From a virus, in the IMG/VR virus record IMGVR_UViG_3300042922_000698, positions 1 to 36,297 of that record: a stretch of DNA of 36,297 nt; one strand, written 5' to 3'. The notes below the pieces were generated by a model. The model saw only the letters and a program-made list of their open reading frames with translations, did no database searches and had not been told where the DNA came from. Position 1 is the stretch's first letter; each line of letters starts with the position of its first letter. Shown piece after piece: positions 852 through 34,513 of this stretch. The position numbers and the translations under genes were made by a program.

Positions 852-1916
852 CTACTCTGCTGGACCCTGTGCCGCCACTTTGCCGCCATTTTTCTTTGCC
901 AATAACGCCAGCGGATTGCAGCGAATTGCATCCTCAAGATGATCGGGCGCGAAGTGCGCATAACGCATCGTCACCCTGATGTCGGAATGCCCGAGAATAC
1001 GCTGCAGCACGATGATGTTTCCCCCGGCCATCATAAAGTGACTGGCAAAGCTATGGCGCAGTACATGGCTCATCTGGCCTTCAGGTAATTCAATACCGGC
1101 CAGGCGAATGACCCGATAAAACTGGCGATAGCACTCTGCAAAAAAACGGCCCTCTTTGTCTTTTAATTCATTATACAGAGCGTTGTCGATGGGTACCGAG
1201 CGGTTCTTTTTGCCTTTGGTATTGATGAAAGTGATTTTGTTTGGGGACAATTGTGAGGCTTTAAGATTCGCGGCTTCACTCCATCGGCACCCGGTTGAAA
1301 GGCAGATTTTGATAATCAGCGTCAGATCAGGGTTATCGTGAACTTGGCAGGCGGCAAACAGCTTTTGTATCTGGGCTTCAGTCAACCATGCCATTTCTTT
1401 CTCTGGCTGATCAAACTCGCGTATATTTTTAAGTGGGTTGGGGTAGCTGATTTCGCCAAGCCGTTCCAGTTCATTAAAAAGAGCCCGAAGGAATGCATGT
1501 TCACAGTTAATGGTACCCGGTGAGACCTTTAACGATTTATCACTGGTTTTGTATCCGTTCTGTATGAGTCCCTGTAAACGCCGATCCCGATAATGTGCCC
1601 AATCCTTCGAAGTGATAGAGGCAGCAACGGGGTTTCCCATACCATTGCAAATAATATTGAGTTTGCCGAGTCGGCCTTTTCTGTCACTTAGCGAGCAACC
1701 GTGCAGTTTGTACCATAGCTCGATAAGTTCGCTAAGCTTGCGGTTATCCTCTTTCTCAGCCAGCCAGGGTTTAGCCTTCATTTCGTCCTGAGTGTATTGC
1801 TCAAAGGCAATGGCTTCGGCACGGGTCCTGAACTGTCGTCTCACTCGTTTACCATCCCTTCCATTGAGATAGCACTCGCAGAGCCACTTACCTGTATTTA
1901 ATTTCCTTATTGCCAT
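852..1916 (-). CDS. int: P2-type tyrosine integrase
   Basis: 354 residues, typical for P2-family integrases. It catalyses recombination between attP and attB, and excision together with a Cox-type factor. The N-terminal arm-binding part starts like P2 Int (MAIRKL, then RRQFRTRAEAIAFEQYT). The catalytic core shows Arg211 (STGCRWSEA), His284 and Arg287 (HVLRHSFASH), His310 (LGHS) and the nucleophile Tyr319 (MRYAHF), so it should be active. The start ATG has the ribosome site AAGGGGGA five bases upstream. The gene ends 68 bases from attL. It lies next to ogr, on the opposite side of the attachment site from cI, unlike P2, and a LexA box covers its promoter. Confidence 0.96.
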   Translation of the reverse strand: MAIRKLNTGKWLCECYLNGRDGKRVRRQFRTRAEAIAFEQYTQDEMKAKPWLAEKEDNRKLSELIELWYKLHGCSLSDRKGRLGKLNIICNGMGNPVAASITSKDWAHYRDRRLQGLIQNGYKTSDKSLKVSPGTINCEHAFLRALFNELERLGEISYPNPLKNIREFDQPEKEMAWLTEAQIQKLFAACQVHDNPDLTLIIKICLSTGCRWSEAANLKASQLSPNKITFINTKGKKNRSVPIDNALYNELKDKEGRFFAECYRQFYRVIRLAGIELPEGQMSHVLRHSFASHFMMAGGNIIVLQRILGHSDIRVTMRYAHFAPDHLEDAIRCNPLALLAKKNGGKVAAQGPAE

Positions 1917-1920
1917 GCAA

Positions 1921-1940
1921 TCCCCCTTGATAAAAGGGGA
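1921..1940 (-). promoter_or_regulatory. Hairpin covering the int ribosome binding site
   Basis: On the minus strand TCCCCTTT and AAGGGGGA can form an 8-bp stem (one G-U pair) with loop TATC. The 3' arm contains the int Shine-Dalgarno sequence. If the mRNA starts at or upstream of 1940 the hairpin would mask the site; with the promoter proposed at 1943-1971 the start would fall near 1936 and cut into the 5' arm. Confidence 0.4.
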
Positions 1941-1942
1941 TT

Positions 1943-1971
1943 AAATTACTGTATGTAAAAACAGTATTCAA
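1943..1971 (-). promoter_or_regulatory. int promoter overlapped by a LexA (SOS) box
   Basis: On the minus strand TTGAAT (1966-1971) and TAATTT (1943-1948) are separated by 17 bases. A LexA box fills the spacer: at 1947-1966 the plus strand reads TACTGTATGTAAAAACAGTA, which has CTGT-N8-ACAG and both flanking TA pairs of the consensus. Binding of LexA here would block polymerase. The -10 is a weak match (3 of 6), so the promoter is less certain than the operator. Confidence 0.75.
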
Positions 1972-1997: not shown

Positions 1998-2018
1998 AAA
2001 AAGCCCTTTGAGCGGGCT
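1998..2018 (-). terminator. Rho-independent terminator after ogr
   Basis: Minus strand: AGCCC, 7-base loop, GGGCT followed by TTTTTC, three bases after the ogr stop codon. It would end the D-ogr tail transcript and insulate int from it. Confidence 0.75.
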
Positions 2019-2021
2019 AAA

Positions 2022-2237
2022 TTAATGCAGAAGGGAAGGTTGCTGTTGGCTGGTGTAGAGTGGCACCTTATTGATTTGCCCAGGCGAGACAATCATTCCA
2101 GTCACGGTCTCGTGTGTTTTGAATGTGCAGCTGCAATTAATATTCTGGCACTGGTGATAACGTTCTTTTGTTTCTTTTGAAACATAGCGGCTGCTTTTTG
2201 CGTGGGCTGCTGTCTGGCATAAAGGGCAGTGCATCAT
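2022..2237 (-). CDS. ogr: Late gene transcriptional activator Ogr/Delta
   Basis: 71 residues beginning MMHCPLC, the usual length of the P2 Ogr/186 B family (about 72). Ogr binds upstream of late promoters and recruits RNA polymerase through its alpha subunit. The zinc site is complete: Cys4, Cys7, Cys30 and Cys35 (C-x2-C-x22-C-x4-C), with the conserved stretch TKERYHQCQN. Three ATG codons in a row (2240, 2237, 2234) follow a GAGGA ribosome site; 2237 gives eight bases spacing and the family's usual N-terminus. The longer upstream frame has no support. It follows gene D as in P2. Confidence 0.93.
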   Translation of the reverse strand: MMHCPLCQTAAHAKSSRYVSKETKERYHQCQNINCSCTFKTHETVTGMIVSPGQINKVPLYTSQQQPSLLH

Positions 2238-2315
2238 CATCGATATCCTCAAAAAGGGCAGGGGAGAGCCACTTAGTTTGAATATGCAAATCGTGTTTTG
2301 CAAATTACACCCGAA

Positions 2316-24104: not shown

Positions 24105-24854
24105 CTAAACCTGAGCCGTGATTACACGCCTGACAGCATCATGTAACCTCTGGAAATTAACGCCTTTCCTTGAAGCGCCAAACTCCATTAGCTGATGACC
24201 ACTAAACTTAGTGTCCCTTCTTTTGTCCGACAGCCGACGCGTCAGCAAAGCAAACAGGGACTTACCGCGAATTAAACTCCCTATATTTGATTGAATTTCA
24301 GCATATAGATGCTCAGGATAATGTTCACCTTCCTCCAAAACTAATGAGGAATGATAAAACTCTTGATCATCTAAAACCTTCCCTGGGTGTTCTCGAAAAG
24401 AAAAAGAGTTATTTTGCCTTTGGTATCTGTCCAGTGATAAAGCAAACCATCTTGAGAATAACTGAACTTCATTGACAAACAATCTTTTTTCATCGACAGT
24501 CAAGAGGCTAATCAAATCCCCATCAGAATATAGATCATTTTCAATTGAATACCCAGTGGTTGTAATAATATCATCGAAACCTTCAGGCTTCCCAAAATAA
24601 ACCCATGTATCATTATCTACTATGAAGGCAATGGGAGTTTTGATCTGGCTTTGAGTAATTCTTTGGCGTAATTCCAATACTGAACCTTTACATCCAGCTG
24701 GTAACATATCTACACCCAAGTCCGATAACCCCTCTTCAAGACGCCTATAGAAAATAATATCATCCTTTCCTTCAACTAAAACAGTGGGGATGCTAGTTCT
24801 TTTGAGTAATTCAAAAAGTTCATCCACAGATGGCCTGCGTTTTGCATTACTCAT
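24105..24854 (-). CDS. DUF4435 TOPRIM-like protein (AriB-like, PARIS)
   Basis: 249 residues from the ATG at 24854 (ribosome site AGGGGAG five bases before; an in-frame GTG at 24860 is poorer). The N-terminal TOPRIM-like core has Glu29 and Asp31-Asp32 (VLVEGKDD), Asp80 and Asp82 (FIVDNDTW) and the DUF4435 signature GYSIENDLYS with Glu105. In PARIS systems AriB is held inactive by the ATPase AriA, is released by phage anti-restriction proteins, and then acts as a nuclease (reported to cut tRNA). It starts within five bases of the ATPase stop. Smaller than the described AriB, so it may belong to a related subtype. Confidence 0.8.
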   Translation of the reverse strand: MSNAKRRPSVDELFELLKRTSIPTVLVEGKDDIIFYRRLEEGLSDLGVDMLPAGCKGSVLELRQRITQSQIKTPIAFIVDNDTWVYFGKPEGFDDIITTTGYSIENDLYSDGDLISLLTVDEKRLFVNEVQLFSRWFALSLDRYQRQNNSFSFREHPGKVLDDQEFYHSSLVLEEGEHYPEHLYAEIQSNIGSLIRGKSLFALLTRRLSDKRRDTKFSGHQLMEFGASRKGVNFQRLHDAVRRVITAQV

Positions 24855-24856
24855 TG

Positions 24857-25963
24857 TCACTCCCCTTTATCAACGCCCATCGAAACTTCTTTATCAGGAT
24901 ATTTACCATAAATAAACGGGGAGTGTGTAGCAAATATAAATTGATTAGAAGGATTTTGATTTTGAAGAATTGAAAATATCTGCCTTTGCCAATCAACATG
25001 TAAGCTAAGCTCAGGCTCATCGATGAAAATTACTGAATCTTGATGAAATGCATTATAACAAATAAAACTTAAAAGTTGTTTTTCGCCTGCGGACAAAACA
25101 TCACTATTTACGGCTTCTGCGGCATCGCCAAAATTTAGCCTCTTGCCGAATGAAATCCCCGAGTGTTGAAATAATTTTTCAACCAAGGCCCTAACAGCCT
25201 CATAAGGAACCATCGTTTGTGATCTAAATTCTTCAATCTTTTCTATTTCTTCTCTGGTTTCTGAGAGCAAAGAATCGGCATCTCCATGCTCTCCCTGAGA
25301 TTTTTGATGTCTTTTTATCTTATCAATAACGCTTCTAGATACTTCTTGCTGGAATGAGTTAATCTCCTCTGAAAATGCTGCGTAGCGTCTTAAAAGCAAG
25401 CTGTTAATATCCTTTGTAGATATAGCCGCTACAAATAAATTTGAAGGGTTACTAAATTTTCTTGAAAGAGAATCCAGTGCCTCATCGATTTCTGAAACAG
25501 GCCTTGCACCGGTACGAACCCTAGTATTGCTATTCTGTAATAATGAAAATCCACCTTCAATTCTACGGAATGTTGGAAAGAATATAGACCCACCATTTGC
25601 GAGTAAATAGGACTTGGCTTTTTCTTCAGCCGACTCACCAAAAAAACCTTCTTCGGGAAAGTCAGGGTCATCTTCTAAAGTAAAGCTCTCTCCATTTATG
25701 GTCATTTCTATCTTACAAAAAACATCACCCGTTCTTATGACGGTGCACGTATAAAGAGAGGTCACAACGGTACAAGATTTAAAATCGACTTCCCGCAACG
25801 CATAAATAATATTCCCACTTATTATGAACCAAACTAGTTTCATCAATGTGGTTTTACCGGAACCATTTCGGCCCGTAATCAAATTGAGATCTTCATTAAA
25901 ATTATATTTCTGTTGAGAATTTTTCCCAAATAAACCAACTACAGTAACTGACCTTAGTTTCAT
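24857..25963 (-). CDS. ABC-type AAA ATPase (AriA-like, PARIS)
   Basis: 368 residues with a complete ABC-type ATPase: Walker A GRNGSGKTT (31-39), signature LSAGEKQLLSF (290-300), Walker B VIFIDEPELSLH (311-322) and switch His347 (FATHSPFIYG). The middle (about 95-285) is helical. This architecture, paired with a DUF4435 protein downstream, is that of PARIS AriA, an ATPase that senses phage anti-restriction proteins; AriA is usually longer (over 400 residues), so the subtype is uncertain. Alternatives are other ATPase-TOPRIM pairs such as OLD-like systems. AT-rich, own promoter at 26051-26079, between gpQ and cos: a known type of position for P2-family defence cargo. Confidence 0.82.
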   Translation of the reverse strand: MKLRSVTVVGLFGKNSQQKYNFNEDLNLITGRNGSGKTTLMKLVWFIISGNIIYALREVDFKSCTVVTSLYTCTVIRTGDVFCKIEMTINGESFTLEDDPDFPEEGFFGESAEEKAKSYLLANGGSIFFPTFRRIEGGFSLLQNSNTRVRTGARPVSEIDEALDSLSRKFSNPSNLFVAAISTKDINSLLLRRYAAFSEEINSFQQEVSRSVIDKIKRHQKSQGEHGDADSLLSETREEIEKIEEFRSQTMVPYEAVRALVEKLFQHSGISFGKRLNFGDAAEAVNSDVLSAGEKQLLSFICYNAFHQDSVIFIDEPELSLHVDWQRQIFSILQNQNPSNQFIFATHSPFIYGKYPDKEVSMGVDKGE

Positions 25964-26352: not shown

Positions 26353-26529
26353 TCATTCAGCCTGGCGGTATATGGCAGCTTCGAAAACAGATGTGTCGAT
26401 TGTTCCTGCCATGTCGCTGATCATCGACAGTGCCATTTTTAATTCATCTTCTTTGCAGTGTGCGATCAGTGATACGTCGGCAATGAACTGAATGCGTGCG
26501 ACCGTTTCACTTAGATTATCTATGCTCAT
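26353..26529 (-). CDS. Small SOS-regulated protein at the right end (58 aa)
   Basis: 58 residues: it begins MSIDNLSETVARIQFIADVS and ends EAAIYRQAE; predominantly helical, acidic, no known domain. The ribosome site AGAAGGAG lies 11 bases before the ATG at 26529, or eight before a TTG at 26532, so the TTG (one residue longer) may be the true start. A strong LexA box lies 30 bases upstream of the ATG and a perfect terminator follows the gene, so it is a self-contained SOS unit. In phage 186 the LexA-controlled antirepressor gene tum is at the same place, next to cos, but Tum is about 146 residues and I see no likeness. An antirepressor role is inferred from position and control. Confidence 0.7.
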   Translation of the reverse strand: MSIDNLSETVARIQFIADVSLIAHCKEDELKMALSMISDMAGTIDTSVFEAAIYRQAE

Positions 26530-26558: not shown

Positions 26559-26578
26559 TACTGTATGTATAAACAGTA
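26559..26578 (-). promoter_or_regulatory. LexA (SOS) box upstream of the small right-end gene
   Basis: TACTGTATGTATAAACAGTA on the plus strand has CTGT-N8-ACAG with matching flanks, one of the closest possible matches to the enteric LexA consensus. It overlaps a likely minus-strand promoter (TTGAAG, 16 bases, TATACA). Confidence 0.88.
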
Positions 26579-29891: not shown

Positions 29892-30401
29892 TCAACTCAT
29901 ACCAAATGATGCACCAATGCCGCTGATAGCATCGACAGTTGAGGATAAAGCCGGATTAGCCTGAATACGCGCCTGTACTGCCATTGCGGCCAAGGTTAAG
30001 CAGCGAATACCGCTATTAACGTTTTGCAAAAGGCCGTGTTTGCTGCTGGCGGTCATTGGTGCTGTAGAAATCGCACCTGCTGCCAACTGGCCGACTTCTG
30101 CAGTAGCTTTCATGACATACAGAGGAAATTTTTCATCAGCGACTTCGTTTACCGGCACACAGGGGAGGCACTGGATTTGCGCCAGCAGGCCATCAACTAA
30201 CGTTGCATCCTCAGTGACATCGGTAAGGGCTAAAACCTCTAAGACGGTAAGTTGATGTGGCTGGTCTGGATTCAACTTATTACGCAGCGTTTGCGCACGC
30301 ATGCCGGACTGCTTAGCGACGTCTTCCATGTTGTGAGCTAACGCGAATTTGCGACAGGCATCGTCGTAACGGGTATGGGTAGAAACCTTGAAATCAAACA
30401 T
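29892..30401 (-). CDS. cII: Regulatory protein CII (186 type)
   Basis: 169 residues from the ATG at 30401 (ribosome site AAGGA, seven bases), the length of 186 CII; the longer frame from 30515 is not supported. The N-terminus (MFDFKVSTHTRYDDACRKFA) and the helix-turn-helix (MEDVAKQSGMRAQTLRNKLN) fit the family. In 186, CII activates the promoter that establishes lysogeny by cI expression. It is the second gene of the lytic early operon after cox. Confidence 0.88.
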   Translation of the reverse strand: MFDFKVSTHTRYDDACRKFALAHNMEDVAKQSGMRAQTLRNKLNPDQPHQLTVLEVLALTDVTEDATLVDGLLAQIQCLPCVPVNEVADEKFPLYVMKATAEVGQLAAGAISTAPMTASSKHGLLQNVNSGIRCLTLAAMAVQARIQANPALSSTVDAISGIGASFGMS

Positions 30402-30432: not shown

Positions 30433-30834
30433 TTATGGTTTGATGTAGCGGCATTTGATTGCCTGCTGGCGGTTCTTTTCACGCCATGCAGCAACATTGA
30501 TAAGCGGATTGCCATGTTTCGTCATGGTGGTTTCTACCACTTCGCCTGTCTTACGATTAGTGCGGTTCTGTGTGTAGGTGAAAGATGGGGTAGGGGCGAG
30601 CAGCACAACCCCGTTAGCAATCCATTTCTCCAGCACCGACAGGCTAATGCGGTTGGCTGCAGCAAAGTCCTGCTTAGACATTGTTGGGGATGTGGCGAGC
30701 GTGACGGCTTTGTTTACGGCGTCGTTTACTGCTTCGCTGATGGCTGGCATCAAAATCGCTGCGACATTGGCAATAAAATCTTGAGATTGCACTAAGTCAA
30801 ATGCGTTCTGACTGTTTGCATTTTCAGTATGCAT
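30433..30834 (-). CDS. cox: Cox/Apl-type regulator and excisionase
   Basis: 133 residues from the ATG at 30834 (AGGAG ten bases before). The N-terminal 45 residues are an extension (MHTENANSQNAFDLVQ..) not present in P2 Cox. A winged helix follows (MSKQDFAAANRISLSVLEKW, then NGVVLLAPTP), ending NPLINVAAWREKNRQQAIKC as many Cox-like proteins do. Cox-type proteins repress cI and direct Int towards excision. The gene is divergent from cI across a 114-base switch region. Only modest likeness to P2 Cox, so the name rests partly on position. Confidence 0.75.
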   Translation of the reverse strand: MHTENANSQNAFDLVQSQDFIANVAAILMPAISEAVNDAVNKAVTLATSPTMSKQDFAAANRISLSVLEKWIANGVVLLAPTPSFTYTQNRTNRKTGEVVETTMTKHGNPLINVAAWREKNRQQAIKCRYIKP

Positions 30835-30892
30835 AACGCAGTATCTCCTGTTAGTTGAACGTGTTCTACGGTGTTGCATATGGTGTGCTAAC

Positions 30893-30929
30893 ACTTTAGA
30901 TCCGTTTTTCTTATCTGTAAATAAGAAAA
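30893..30929. promoter_or_regulatory. Lysis-lysogeny switch: lytic promoter and palindromic operator
   Basis: On the minus strand TTTACA (30916-30921), 17 bases, TAAAGT (30893-30898) form a good early lytic promoter reading into cox. A palindrome with 9-bp arms, TTTTCTTAT and ATAAGAAAA around six bases (30906-30929), covers its -35 element and lies 20 bases before cI. It is the best candidate operator for the cI product. Confidence 0.65.
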
Positions 30930-30948: not shown

Positions 30949-31785
30949 ATGCGCATTGAAAAAGCTGTTGGGCCTGAAGTTTTAGAGCGAATGCTTTCTG
31001 CATACGGCTTCAGTATGCAAAAGGAGCTGGCCGAGCATCTGGGTATAGCTAAAAGCAATGTTGCTGGCTGGGTGCAACGCGGGCAGGTTCCGGGTAATGC
31101 TATTGTGCAGTGCGCTTTAGATACTGGCGCTGATGTTAATTGGTTAGTAACAGGCGAACTTGAAAAAGCAAACTCTGTGCCTGAACTGCCTAACCTGACT
31201 GGTAAAGCTGTCTACGATGAAGTTTTGGCTAATGGTGGTAAACCTGTTCTTCGCCGTATCCTTGATGCATATGGATTTACACTGCAAAAGCAACTTTGTG
31301 AATTATTGGATATTTCATCAGGGACGGTCAGTACTTGGGTAAGGCGGAATTATTTTCCTGGTGATGTTGTTGTCACGTGTGCAATCGATACTGGTGTGTC
31401 TCTTAGATGGTTAGCAACCGGGAAAGGGAATTTAAACAAGGAACAAATTTCTATTGATGCTGTAAATGAAATCCCACGTAAGGTTTTAACTTCTGGAGTT
31501 CTAAGTGACTCTGGAAGTTGGACTGTTGATCTTAGCTTTATTAAGCATTCCTTCAAACAGCCAGTTTTTATATCCAGCAACTATGCTTCTTGGATTGTTG
31601 ATATGAATATCACAGATATAAGCAACGGAAAATGGCTTCTAGGTATTGATGATAAATACGACGTTTACGATATAACAGTCTTACCAGGCCGTAAAATTGA
31701 GGTTGTTAAAACTAATAATTTTATATGCGGAATCGATGAAGTAAAGGCTGTGGGTAAAGTAATTATTACCTTAGTAACTGACTGA
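30949..31785 (+). CDS. cI: CI-type phage repressor with two helix-turn-helix domains
   Basis: 278 residues; the phage 186 CI is 192. The N-terminal DNA-binding domain occurs twice in tandem, at about residues 11-70 and 100-159. The copies align without gaps and are 50 percent identical (30 of 60), both having AYGF..QK.L, a turn helix (KSNVAGWVQRG; GTVSTWVRRN), CA.DTG and W L.TG. The C-terminal domain (about 180-278, with LPGRKIEVV and FICGIDEVKAVGKVI) resembles that of 186 CI, which forms higher-order oligomers. It represses the divergent cox promoter. AGGG lies seven bases before the ATG. cI probably starts a transcript that continues into the cargo genes. Confidence 0.92.
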   Translation: MRIEKAVGPEVLERMLSAYGFSMQKELAEHLGIAKSNVAGWVQRGQVPGNAIVQCALDTGADVNWLVTGELEKANSVPELPNLTGKAVYDEVLANGGKPVLRRILDAYGFTLQKQLCELLDISSGTVSTWVRRNYFPGDVVVTCAIDTGVSLRWLATGKGNLNKEQISIDAVNEIPRKVLTSGVLSDSGSWTVDLSFIKHSFKQPVFISSNYASWIVDMNITDISNGKWLLGIDDKYDVYDITVLPGRKIEVVKTNNFICGIDEVKAVGKVIITLVTD

Positions 31786-31828
31786 TGTGGCGTATATCAG
31801 TGTTTTTTTGTTTTTTGAAGGAATTACT

Positions 31829-32872
31829 ATGAGGCGGGAGTCTTTAGATTTTGAATGTTTAGTTAAAGAAATATTCCAACACTTATCTTGTGATTTAAAA
31901 AGTGATTGGAATGATAAGTTTGATATGGTTTTTGATTGGAATGATTCTGAGTACGTTTCCGAGATAAAATATTATCGAACAATTAGGGCGCAGGTTTCTC
32001 TTATTAATCGTGCTATTTTTCAATTTAAGAGAATTAAAGATGCTCGGCAGAATTTTATTGATGATGGCGTTGGTGGGCTATTGATTATTTCATCATATCT
32101 TGAGTCAGGGTTAAAGAATGTTATAGAAAATGAAGAGGACATTGTAATTGTTGATTTGTATGATCTTCTGGCATTAACATCTGAATTACCCGAACATAGA
32201 GAGAAGCTAATAAAATTACTTGAGATTCCTGACGGGTTGATTGATGCAAATAAAGGAAGGGATTTAGAAGAAATATTTGCTCGAGAAGATAGTTTTCATG
32301 ACAGGGTTAATCGCTCTGTACCTGTTGAAGATGACCCTCAAAATAATGAGCAGTTGATATCCAGATTGTTAGACCTACCTGCTGGTAAAAAACATTGGAA
32401 GAGTTATGAGACTTTAATGATTGAAATACTAAAGTTCCTTTTTGAGGATGATTTAAAAGGATGGTATACGCAATATGAAAGTGAGAATAAATTAAACAGA
32501 TATGATTGTGTTTGCGGAATAAAGAAAACCACAGAGTTTTGGTCGTTATTAATTGAACAGTTAAAGTCTAATTATTTATTAATCGAATTTAAAAACTATA
32601 GTGATGAGATCACTCAGGGTGAAGTGTTGACCACTGAGAAGTATCTATTTGAAAATGCTTTTAGAAAAGTCGCTTTGATATTTTGTAGGAAAGGGGCTAA
32701 TCACTCAGCGTTGCAAATGTGCATGGGGGCTATGAGAGAAAGTGGGCGTCTTATACTTGTTCTCGATGATAAAGATGTTGTCGAGATGATTCATAGTAAA
32801 GAAAATGGGAGTGATCCATCTGATTTTTTGCATCAAAAAGTCGATGATTTTCTGATGAGATTATCCAGATAA
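31829..32872 (+). CDS. Cargo protein with two PD-(D/E)xK-like nuclease cores
   Basis: 347 residues from the ATG at 31829 (AAGGA, six bases before); a GTG-like upstream start at 31787 is not supported. I recognise no named family. The N-terminal domain looks Mrr-like: helix FECLVKEIFQHL, Asp32/Asp36 and Glu45-x-Lys47 (SEIKYYR), then IISSYLE. The C-terminal domain repeats the plan: helix YETLMIEILKFL, Asp226 (RYDCV), Glu253-x-Lys255 (LLIEFKNY), then TTEKYLFENAF and ALIFCRKGA. Both could be active nucleases of the restriction-endonuclease fold. AT-rich, 43 bases after cI, and reading the same way, so expressed in the lysogen. An anti-phage role is inferred. Confidence 0.82.
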   Translation: MRRESLDFECLVKEIFQHLSCDLKSDWNDKFDMVFDWNDSEYVSEIKYYRTIRAQVSLINRAIFQFKRIKDARQNFIDDGVGGLLIISSYLESGLKNVIENEEDIVIVDLYDLLALTSELPEHREKLIKLLEIPDGLIDANKGRDLEEIFAREDSFHDRVNRSVPVEDDPQNNEQLISRLLDLPAGKKHWKSYETLMIEILKFLFEDDLKGWYTQYESENKLNRYDCVCGIKKTTEFWSLLIEQLKSNYLLIEFKNYSDEITQGEVLTTEKYLFENAFRKVALIFCRKGANHSALQMCMGAMRESGRLILVLDDKDVVEMIHSKENGSDPSDFLHQKVDDFLMRLSR

Positions 32873-32960
32873 AGACTATCAAAATAATAATAAATGGTTT
32901 GCAACTCTAAGTGGCGCTATTCAATTTAAAAGTATAATTGAATGCAGGAGAAGAATTTCA

Positions 32961-33734
32961 ATGGTTTGGTTTCTAGCAAGTATAACCGAAGTTTTACAAC
33001 TGATGAAGTCAATTCCTATAGCATTTATCGGTGCAGCTTTTGGGATCTACTTTTCATATATGAAGTTAACTTCAAAAATAACTTATTCATTTTCAGTGTC
33101 CCCTAGGTTTTATGGTGACAAGCTGACCGATTTTGTCTTTCAAAATCGACGCGATAGGACTTATGTTATCCAGAAGGTTTTCTGCAAATATGCTGATGGT
33201 GAAATTTCAAGGTTGAAGGATTTTCATCCACCATTAATATTGAAACCTTATGAGGCTATTGTAGTAGAATTTGAAGATGTCAGCGAGTGGCAGAGTCTAG
33301 ATGGTATCGCTTATAAGCCTAATCATATGGACTCATTCGAAATTTTCGCCTTTACTCATGGTAAAGGTGTTATCAAATGCAAAAGAGAATATAAATCTAA
33401 ATACAAAGAATATACAGTAAAGCCATTTACATCAAGTTTTGATGACCTTATATTGCAGGGAGATATGTTTTTTGTTCTCGCCGGCTGGCAGGGGAAAAAA
33501 TCCGTTAAGATTGTTTTCTATCGTTCAGGCTTTCTTGACGGCTCAGAAAATTTTGGTGGGTATAACTATATAGATATTAAAGGTTCACCATGTATTAAAC
33601 TTGAGGATATAACCAAGGTTGTTTTTAAAAAAGGTTTTGATAAACAATGGGACTTCTTCAGAATTTATAGCGTTGAAAACTACAAACTAAATGTAGTTTT
33701 CACTCATCGCTCGAAAGATAACAATGAAGGTTAA
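32961..33734 (+). CDS. Cargo protein, one membrane anchor, unknown function
   Basis: 257 residues with one hydrophobic N-terminal segment (about 16-34, SIPIAFIGAAFGIYFSYM) and a large beta-rich soluble domain (PRFYGDKLTDFVFQNRRDRT, ILKPYEAIVVEFEDVSEW, MFFVLAGWQGKKSVKIVFY). It is probably anchored in the inner membrane; no catalytic motif is seen. AGGAG lies ten bases before the ATG. AT-rich, between the double-nuclease gene and the EACC1-like gene, all on the plus strand. I do not recognise the family. Confidence 0.75.
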   Translation: MVWFLASITEVLQLMKSIPIAFIGAAFGIYFSYMKLTSKITYSFSVSPRFYGDKLTDFVFQNRRDRTYVIQKVFCKYADGEISRLKDFHPPLILKPYEAIVVEFEDVSEWQSLDGIAYKPNHMDSFEIFAFTHGKGVIKCKREYKSKYKEYTVKPFTSSFDDLILQGDMFFVLAGWQGKKSVKIVFYRSGFLDGSENFGGYNYIDIKGSPCIKLEDITKVVFKKGFDKQWDFFRIYSVENYKLNVVFTHRSKDNNEG

Positions 33735-33964
33735 TATCGAAATGTCAAAGGTTAACGATCTTGTTATTCTTAGATAATATGACAGTTGCTTCATTTTTAG
33801 GGATAGTTAGTTGATTTACATCGACGATGCGATGATAGTTTTTTATTTTTAACGATGTTTTAAATGAAAAGGAAATGTTTCTTCCTAATAGAATAGTTAT
33901 TCCACTATTTAAAAATGCAAATGCTAGTGCTAATCTTTTAAAAAAAGGGAGTTTGTCAATTAAA

Positions 33965-34297
33965 ATGAAAAGTTTCACAGATTCAGTCCTCTTGAGAGCT
34001 CGATGGGACATTATAAATGAAATAAAAAAAGAACTCGAACAACATGGGCATAGTTTTTCAAGAGGCCCAATGTGTTTTTCAGTTGGCAACCTTGAATTTA
34101 TCAGTGTCGCGCTTCCAGTGGCAGGAGCTGTAGCTGGGGCACTAGCTACCATTATTGTTGCCTGCGTTAGCCGTGGTAAGAAGATACGTGTGGTTTTTGA
34201 AGGCGATAAGGTTAAAGAGATTGATGCTTCAAATTATAAACAAGAAGAAATAATTGAGATGATTAAGGAAGTCAAAAGAATTGACATCTGTGATTAG
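33965..34297 (+). CDS. Small cargo protein, EACC1-like (effector-associated)
   Basis: About 110 residues from the ATG at 33965 (MKSFTDSVLLRARWDIINEI); a longer frame starts at 33875. A helical N-terminus is followed by a glycine/alanine-rich hydrophobic segment (ISVALPVAGAVAGALATIIV), then a basic turn and RVVFEGDKVKEIDASNYKQE with a final helix. This order resembles the EACC1 domain (a short membrane or interface helix followed by a strand-turn-strand and helix) found beside effector genes in conflict systems; the likeness is weak and by eye only. The start is uncertain. A terminator follows, and attR is 75 bases away. Confidence 0.6.
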   Translation: MKSFTDSVLLRARWDIINEIKKELEQHGHSFSRGPMCFSVGNLEFISVALPVAGAVAGALATIIVACVSRGKKIRVVFEGDKVKEIDASNYKQEEIIEMIKEVKRIDICD

Positions 34298-34358: not shown

Positions 34359-34372
34359 AATGATATAAAATA

Positions 34373-34390
34373 GTATTCGGTCTTTTTTTG
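34373..34390. other. attR core (18-bp direct repeat)
   Basis: Exact copy of 766-783. Here the sequence before it is phage DNA (…GATATAAAATA) and so no sdsR hairpin can form; the sequence after it is host. Confidence 0.9.
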
Positions 34391-34513
34391 TTTGTGTGTA
34401 ACGTTCAGAAACTAACCAGAGTGCCTCAAGAAGATAAATTACTGGAGAGGGTAAGAGATTATCGCGTCCCGCACTTGTCCTCTGGAAGTAGCCGCAACAA
34501 ACAGAAGAAATAG

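Follow-up and report, generated by a model that had tools for sequence, protein, structure and literature searches.

The window, the whole stretch of 36,297 nucleotides analyzed here, contains a P2/186-like prophage that lies between att repeats in the 3′ end of an sdsR/ryeB small RNA gene. The markers of P2/186-like phages (Peduoviridae) are present, namely a gene A replicase, Ogr, gpD, and P2-type late genes, and the order from left to right is int, ogr, D, U, T, further late genes (mostly leftward), terminase and portal genes, cargo genes, tumA, A, cII, and cI.

762–787: attL core repeat, a 26-nt repeat matching 34369–34394 at 92%, in the 3′ end of sdsR/ryeB (Rfam SdsR_RyeB, 686–782)
852–1916, minus strand: int, tyrosine integrase of 354 aa, ATG at 1916 (Pfam Phage_integrase, 6.8e-24; Int_N, 4.6e-31; PHROG integrase)
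2022–2303, minus strand: ogr, late gene activator (Pfam Ogr_Delta, 5.7e-19), directly upstream of int and in the same direction
26353–26529, minus strand: tumA-like gene of 58 aa (42% identity over 48 aa to PSP3 TumA, E = 1e-13; PHROG 1993)
26559–26578: second LexA box, TACTGTATGTATAAACAGTA, in front of tumA
29892–30401, minus strand: cII, 169 aa starting MFDF (61% identity to 186 CII over 168 aa; PHROG CII)
30949–31785, plus strand: cI-type repressor with two helix-turn-helix domains
34369–34394: attR core repeat, pair of the repeat at 762–787

Cotranscription of int behind the repressor gene, which is typical but not obligatory in P2/186-like phages, is not found here: int and cI occupy opposite ends of the prophage, and cI is transcribed toward attR, away from int. 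The repressor has a duplicated helix-turn-helix (two Phage_CI_repr stretches) followed by one CI C-terminal domain. The att core falls in the terminator end of sdsR/ryeB (Rfam; 645–787), beside a yebY-like gene. Cargo genes fill 31787–34297 between cI and attR, the first of them matching the defence candidate PDC-M36A weakly, and an AAA ATPase and DUF4435 pair at 24105–25963, between the portal gene and tumA, resembles the PARIS defence system (AriA, 1.3e-29; AriB, 4.2e-8).

The tumA product is likely an SOS-controlled antirepressor. Its LexA box stands before a Tum-like gene behind gene A, the arrangement of 186-type Tum induction; a LexA box behind gene A also occurs in ENT90, PSP3, Fels-2, and 186, and the 186 counterpart is annotated as a putative LexA site of p95. 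In 186, the route from SOS through LexA to Tum, a LexA-controlled antirepressor, has been reported (PMC3121763). Fels-2 STM2728 was considered as a TumA homologue and rejected, as no alignment was obtained.

The LexA box and core promoter of int

The region upstream of int holds a candidate promoter overlapped by a LexA box.

1943–1971, minus strand: predicted sigma-70 int promoter, TTGAAT (1971–1966), 17-bp spacer, TAATTT (1948–1943)
1947–1966: LexA box, plus-strand sequence TACTGTATGTAAAAACAGTA, 17 of 20 positions matching the consensus TACTGTATATATATACAGTA (three mismatches)

The CTG-N10-CAG core of the box (1949–1964) lies inside the 17-bp spacer, 30 nt separate the box from the int ATG, and a CTG-N10-CAG palindrome overlapping a promoter, as in the LexA regulon, is thus found at int. 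No match as good arose in 100 dinucleotide shuffles of the window, and a scan of the whole window found a second comparable box only at 26559, before tumA; the two boxes are identical at 19 of 20 positions. With a weight matrix of 22 E. coli sites, the int box scored 26.5, in the upper range of the known E. coli sites (13.0–27.6), and the top score over 100 whole-window shuffles was 18.8; the host LexA is assumed to be of the usual Enterobacterales type. Chance does not account for this box, which is a predicted LexA site. The original prediction of a near-consensus LexA box in the spacer of the int promoter was therefore borne out, and the clade conservation described below agrees with it.

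Taken alone, the promoter hexamers are weak (−35, 4/6; −10, 3/6), and the promoter was not among the sites listed by a generic promoter scan; the case for it therefore rests on comparison and conservation. From the position of the −10 element, transcription is predicted to start near 1936. Across 17 representatives sharing less than 90% Int identity, conservation is largely maintained for the box, the TTGA, and a TA...T in the −10 position but does not extend to the flanks.

We scanned the upstream regions of about 150 integrase relatives for a LexA box. Of the 60 members of one clade in a 143-integrase tree, 53 carry a box 28–36 nt before int, a count that overstates independence because clade members share ancestry. 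This clade spans several genera of Enterobacterales, and the hosts of the prophage family are plant- and soil-associated enterobacteria, with natural lysogens in Rahnella and Buttiauxella, for example. Nearly all integrases more than about 68% identical have the box at this distance, whereas those below about 61% lack it, except at the Aeromonas locus L052. Among the phage records listed, none had an integrase at least 60% identical. In two loci (L007 and L020), the sequence appears to break off shortly before int, and the box is decayed in L122, L128, L130, L131, and L134. The decay in the sublineage formed by L122, L128, L130, and L131 indicates that LexA control of int is dispensable; L128 keeps the LexA box near tumA despite its decayed int box. 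This sublineage also has a decayed proximal half-site in the CII-type repeat described below. At L052 (3787–3806), a LexA-like box, AACTGTATATAATGACAGTG, lies 15 nt upstream of the integrase gene and is absent from the sister locus L049; it is possibly an independent gain. In Erwinia sp. 198 (L103/L104, L006/L008), a single contig carries two box-type int genes at a distance of about 31 kb, which fits tandem elements at one att site.

Gene order follows the same division. Box-type int genes lie behind ogr in nearly all loci, whereas the others lie behind cI, and wherever ogr was found upstream in the relatives examined, int followed it in the same direction. At one exception, L125, the box is present and the upstream neighbour is cI (about 1.7 kb) rather than ogr. 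The cI-linked int genes have, with single exceptions, neither a LexA box nor a CII-type repeat. The distances of the box to int, to the −35 element, and to the CII-type repeat remain constant even in loci with other genes, about 1 kb in all, between ogr and int.

The CII-type repeat upstream of the −35 element

Alignment of the 17 representatives on the box revealed three conserved blocks: ATGTTT, CAAACATTGAA, and the LexA box itself. The first two together form an inverted repeat that stays at a constant distance from the LexA box.

1971–1996: CII-type operator at int, read on the minus strand as ATGTTTGA-N10-TCAAACAT, with half-sites as in 186 pE
30375–30401: CII-type site at the cII start (pE equivalent), ATGGGTAGAAACCTTGAAATCAAACAT

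The annotated CII site of 186 pE is ATGTTTG-N13-CAAACAT. The int repeat matches its half-sites at 14 of 14 positions with spacing N12, and it is the only site in the window with at least 12 of 14 matches; the window's own pE site reaches 11 of 14, with a poor distal half-site. At least 12 of 14 matches were found in 44 of 51 distinct box-type upstream regions versus 1 of 84 others, with a spacing of 12–13 in relatives compared with 13 in 186. In most of the same genomes, the right half-site at pE, ATCAAACAT, is also the right half-site at int. At pE it opens the cII reading frame, but at int it is non-coding, so that its conservation at int is independent of coding. The CII site of 186 starts at a distance of 35 nt from the end annotated for the pE promoter. 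Counting the same distance from the int repeat gives 1936, which is also the start that the −10 element had separately predicted.

Inverted half-sites at N12–13 and an encoded cognate CII, the sequence hallmarks of a 186-type CII promoter, thus occur together here. From the half-site match, its conservation, the homology of CII, and the equal start distance, we infer that the int promoter is activated by CII at this predicted operator. Such an operator would explain how integrase is produced on infection, while LexA is intact. Whereas 186 CII is reported to drive both cI and int from pE (PMC8538670), these jobs appear to be divided here between pE and the int promoter. The claim that int has a private SOS promoter thus held as regards a promoter of its own with a conserved LexA box, apart from cI, but it overlooked the CII-type operator.

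Two other assignments were rejected. An Ogr site has similar half-sites, but the spacing is wrong, and the candidate late sites are spaced differently; the Ogr motif reported for P2-like phages is TGTTGT-N13-ACAACA (PMC5694545). As for a CI operator at int, the one exact copy of the palindrome TTCTTATCTGTAAATAAGAA, a candidate CI operator, is at 30908, between cI and the early genes, and there is none at int. This absence supports, at the sequence level, the earlier view that LexA and not CI only controls int.

The ogr–int junction, rival readings, and a two-input model

Two predicted RNA structures flank the int promoter.

1919–1942, minus strand: leader hairpin, AATCCCCTTTTATCAAGGGGGATT, spanning the int Shine-Dalgarno sequence AAGGGG (z = −3.35)
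2002–2018, minus strand: terminator-like hairpin between ogr and int, with stronger versions in relatives

Between box and ATG, the leader RNA folds more stably than shuffled sequence in most box-type members, with a mean z of −2.6, compared with +0.24 in cI-linked controls. The pairing sequences vary among lineages, and the ribosome site stays in or beside the 3′ arm; the hairpin is absent or weak in L005, L006, L009–L013, L019, L109, and L123. Transcription starting inside the hairpin, as a possible RNA switch, was also considered: in the window, the predicted start at 1936 falls within the 5′ arm, and deletion of this arm in folding frees the ribosome site in some lineages but not all. The simplest role of the hairpin is probably to block int translation from read-through RNA.

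Could int instead depend on Ogr, through read-through of the late operon (D-ogr-int), with the box as a leftover? The position of int behind ogr, in the same direction, would suit this reading. The terminator-like hairpin after ogr, stronger in relatives, and the leader hairpin over the int ribosome site both argue against it, as do the better conservation of the box than of its flanks and a repeat spacing unlike that of the Ogr motif cited above; we give read-through very little credence. Hardly more probable is a LexA site with little effect on int, whose main target would be a gene on the opposite strand or nothing. The box is palindromic, and a 69-aa plus-strand open reading frame begins at 1971, but this frame is not conserved, being 3–20 aa long in nine of ten relatives checked and 136 in one, and an antisense gene was rejected on that ground. 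Moreover, the box holds its distance to int, the −35 element, and the CII repeat even with the intervening genes noted above.

It is also conceivable, though unlikely, that LexA alone controls int, that the repeat is an Int or excisionase site or some other operator, and that infection-time integrase comes from leakiness. Int-binding repeats at int promoters do exist, an example being the promoter that KplE1 IntS itself represses (PMC2951348), and the CII operator at int is itself predicted from sequence. Against this, the half-sites agree in every letter with those of the CII site annotated in 186, they also match the pE sites of the same genomes, and the spacing of 12–13 is close to the 13 of 186. 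The repeat is unlike the arm consensus annotated for 186 Int, YAYCGCCAYTY; the Apl sites of 186 are located at attP and pR/pL, whereas the att site of the window is at the other end of int.

We consider it probable, with good confidence, that the int promoter responds to CII as an activator on infection and to LexA as a repressor in the lysogen, with SOS releasing it alongside LexA-controlled TumA. In a lysogen, host LexA bound to the box in the promoter spacer would keep int off. DNA damage would remove LexA and release int directly; via the second LexA box it would also release the TumA antirepressor, which would inactivate CI, so that SOS would act on CI and int in parallel. Inactivation of CI would open the early operon, which is expected to encode the excisionase; release from LexA alone should therefore not suffice for excision, and the prophage would exit once Int and excisionase meet. 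The candidate excisionase gene is at 30433–30836. On infection, CII from the early transcript would bind the two half-sites upstream of −35 and activate int, as at pE for cI. The hairpin over the int ribosome site and the terminator after ogr probably prevent integrase synthesis from late read-through RNA. The kinetics of all these steps are predictions of the model. The original prediction that SOS raises integrase directly for excision was right in direction; the tumA LexA box, the leader hairpin, and the clade-wide arrangement were missing from it. With somewhat less confidence, we favour the broader reading that a P2-like clade split the lysogenic operon and acquired a two-input int promoter (CII on, LexA off) together with a leader hairpin that silences read-through RNA.

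Coliphage 186, PSP3, and Fels-2 share homologous CII and the CI type with the window phage; the CII half-sites of 186 are identical to those at int, and PSP3 has the TumA-like gene in common. In these phages, int follows cI directly or nearly, and there is no LexA box at int; in the window phage, int lies across the att site, behind ogr, with its own promoter. PSP3 has a DUF2511 gene between cI and int. By structural genes, the closest named phage is Erwinia phage ENT90 (late genes 81% identical over 61% of the compared stretch), but its int overlaps the repressor gene directly, without a LexA box there.

In lambda, int and the repressor have separate CII-driven promoters, pI and pRE, and the window phage resembles it in that each of the two genes would have its own CII-driven promoter. 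Lambda CII is unrelated to that of the window, SOS acts in lambda through CI cleavage, and we know of no LexA box at lambda int. A LexA box in an integrase promoter is reported for integron intI (PMC3108266), which differs in that it is not of a phage, has no CII, and shuffles cassettes. The Ralstonia phages phiRSA1 and phiRSY1 are P2-like with an inverted int gene; the available part of that report makes no mention of LexA or CII control of int (PMC5694545). SOS-controlled integrases in integrons and SOS-controlled induction of the P2-like phage 186 are thus already known, and we found no report of a LexA-controlled phage integrase in the open-access literature. Our reading would add a phage family to the integrons as carriers of SOS-controlled integrases, and it gives a 186-type phage a predicted CII operator at int, as a counterpart to lambda pI.

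In 186 and P2, int is on the lysogenic transcript, so that a lysogen can make integrase while excisionase is off. A lysogen of the window phage, by comparison, is expected to produce little Int, the supply coming from SOS. Two matters thereby become testable: the supply of Int at entry and exit from one promoter, and the stability of a lysogen whose integrase is repressed by LexA. If the model is true, integration on infection and SOS-coupled excision both draw on a single integrase promoter, and the signals for entry and exit would both reach the same enzyme.
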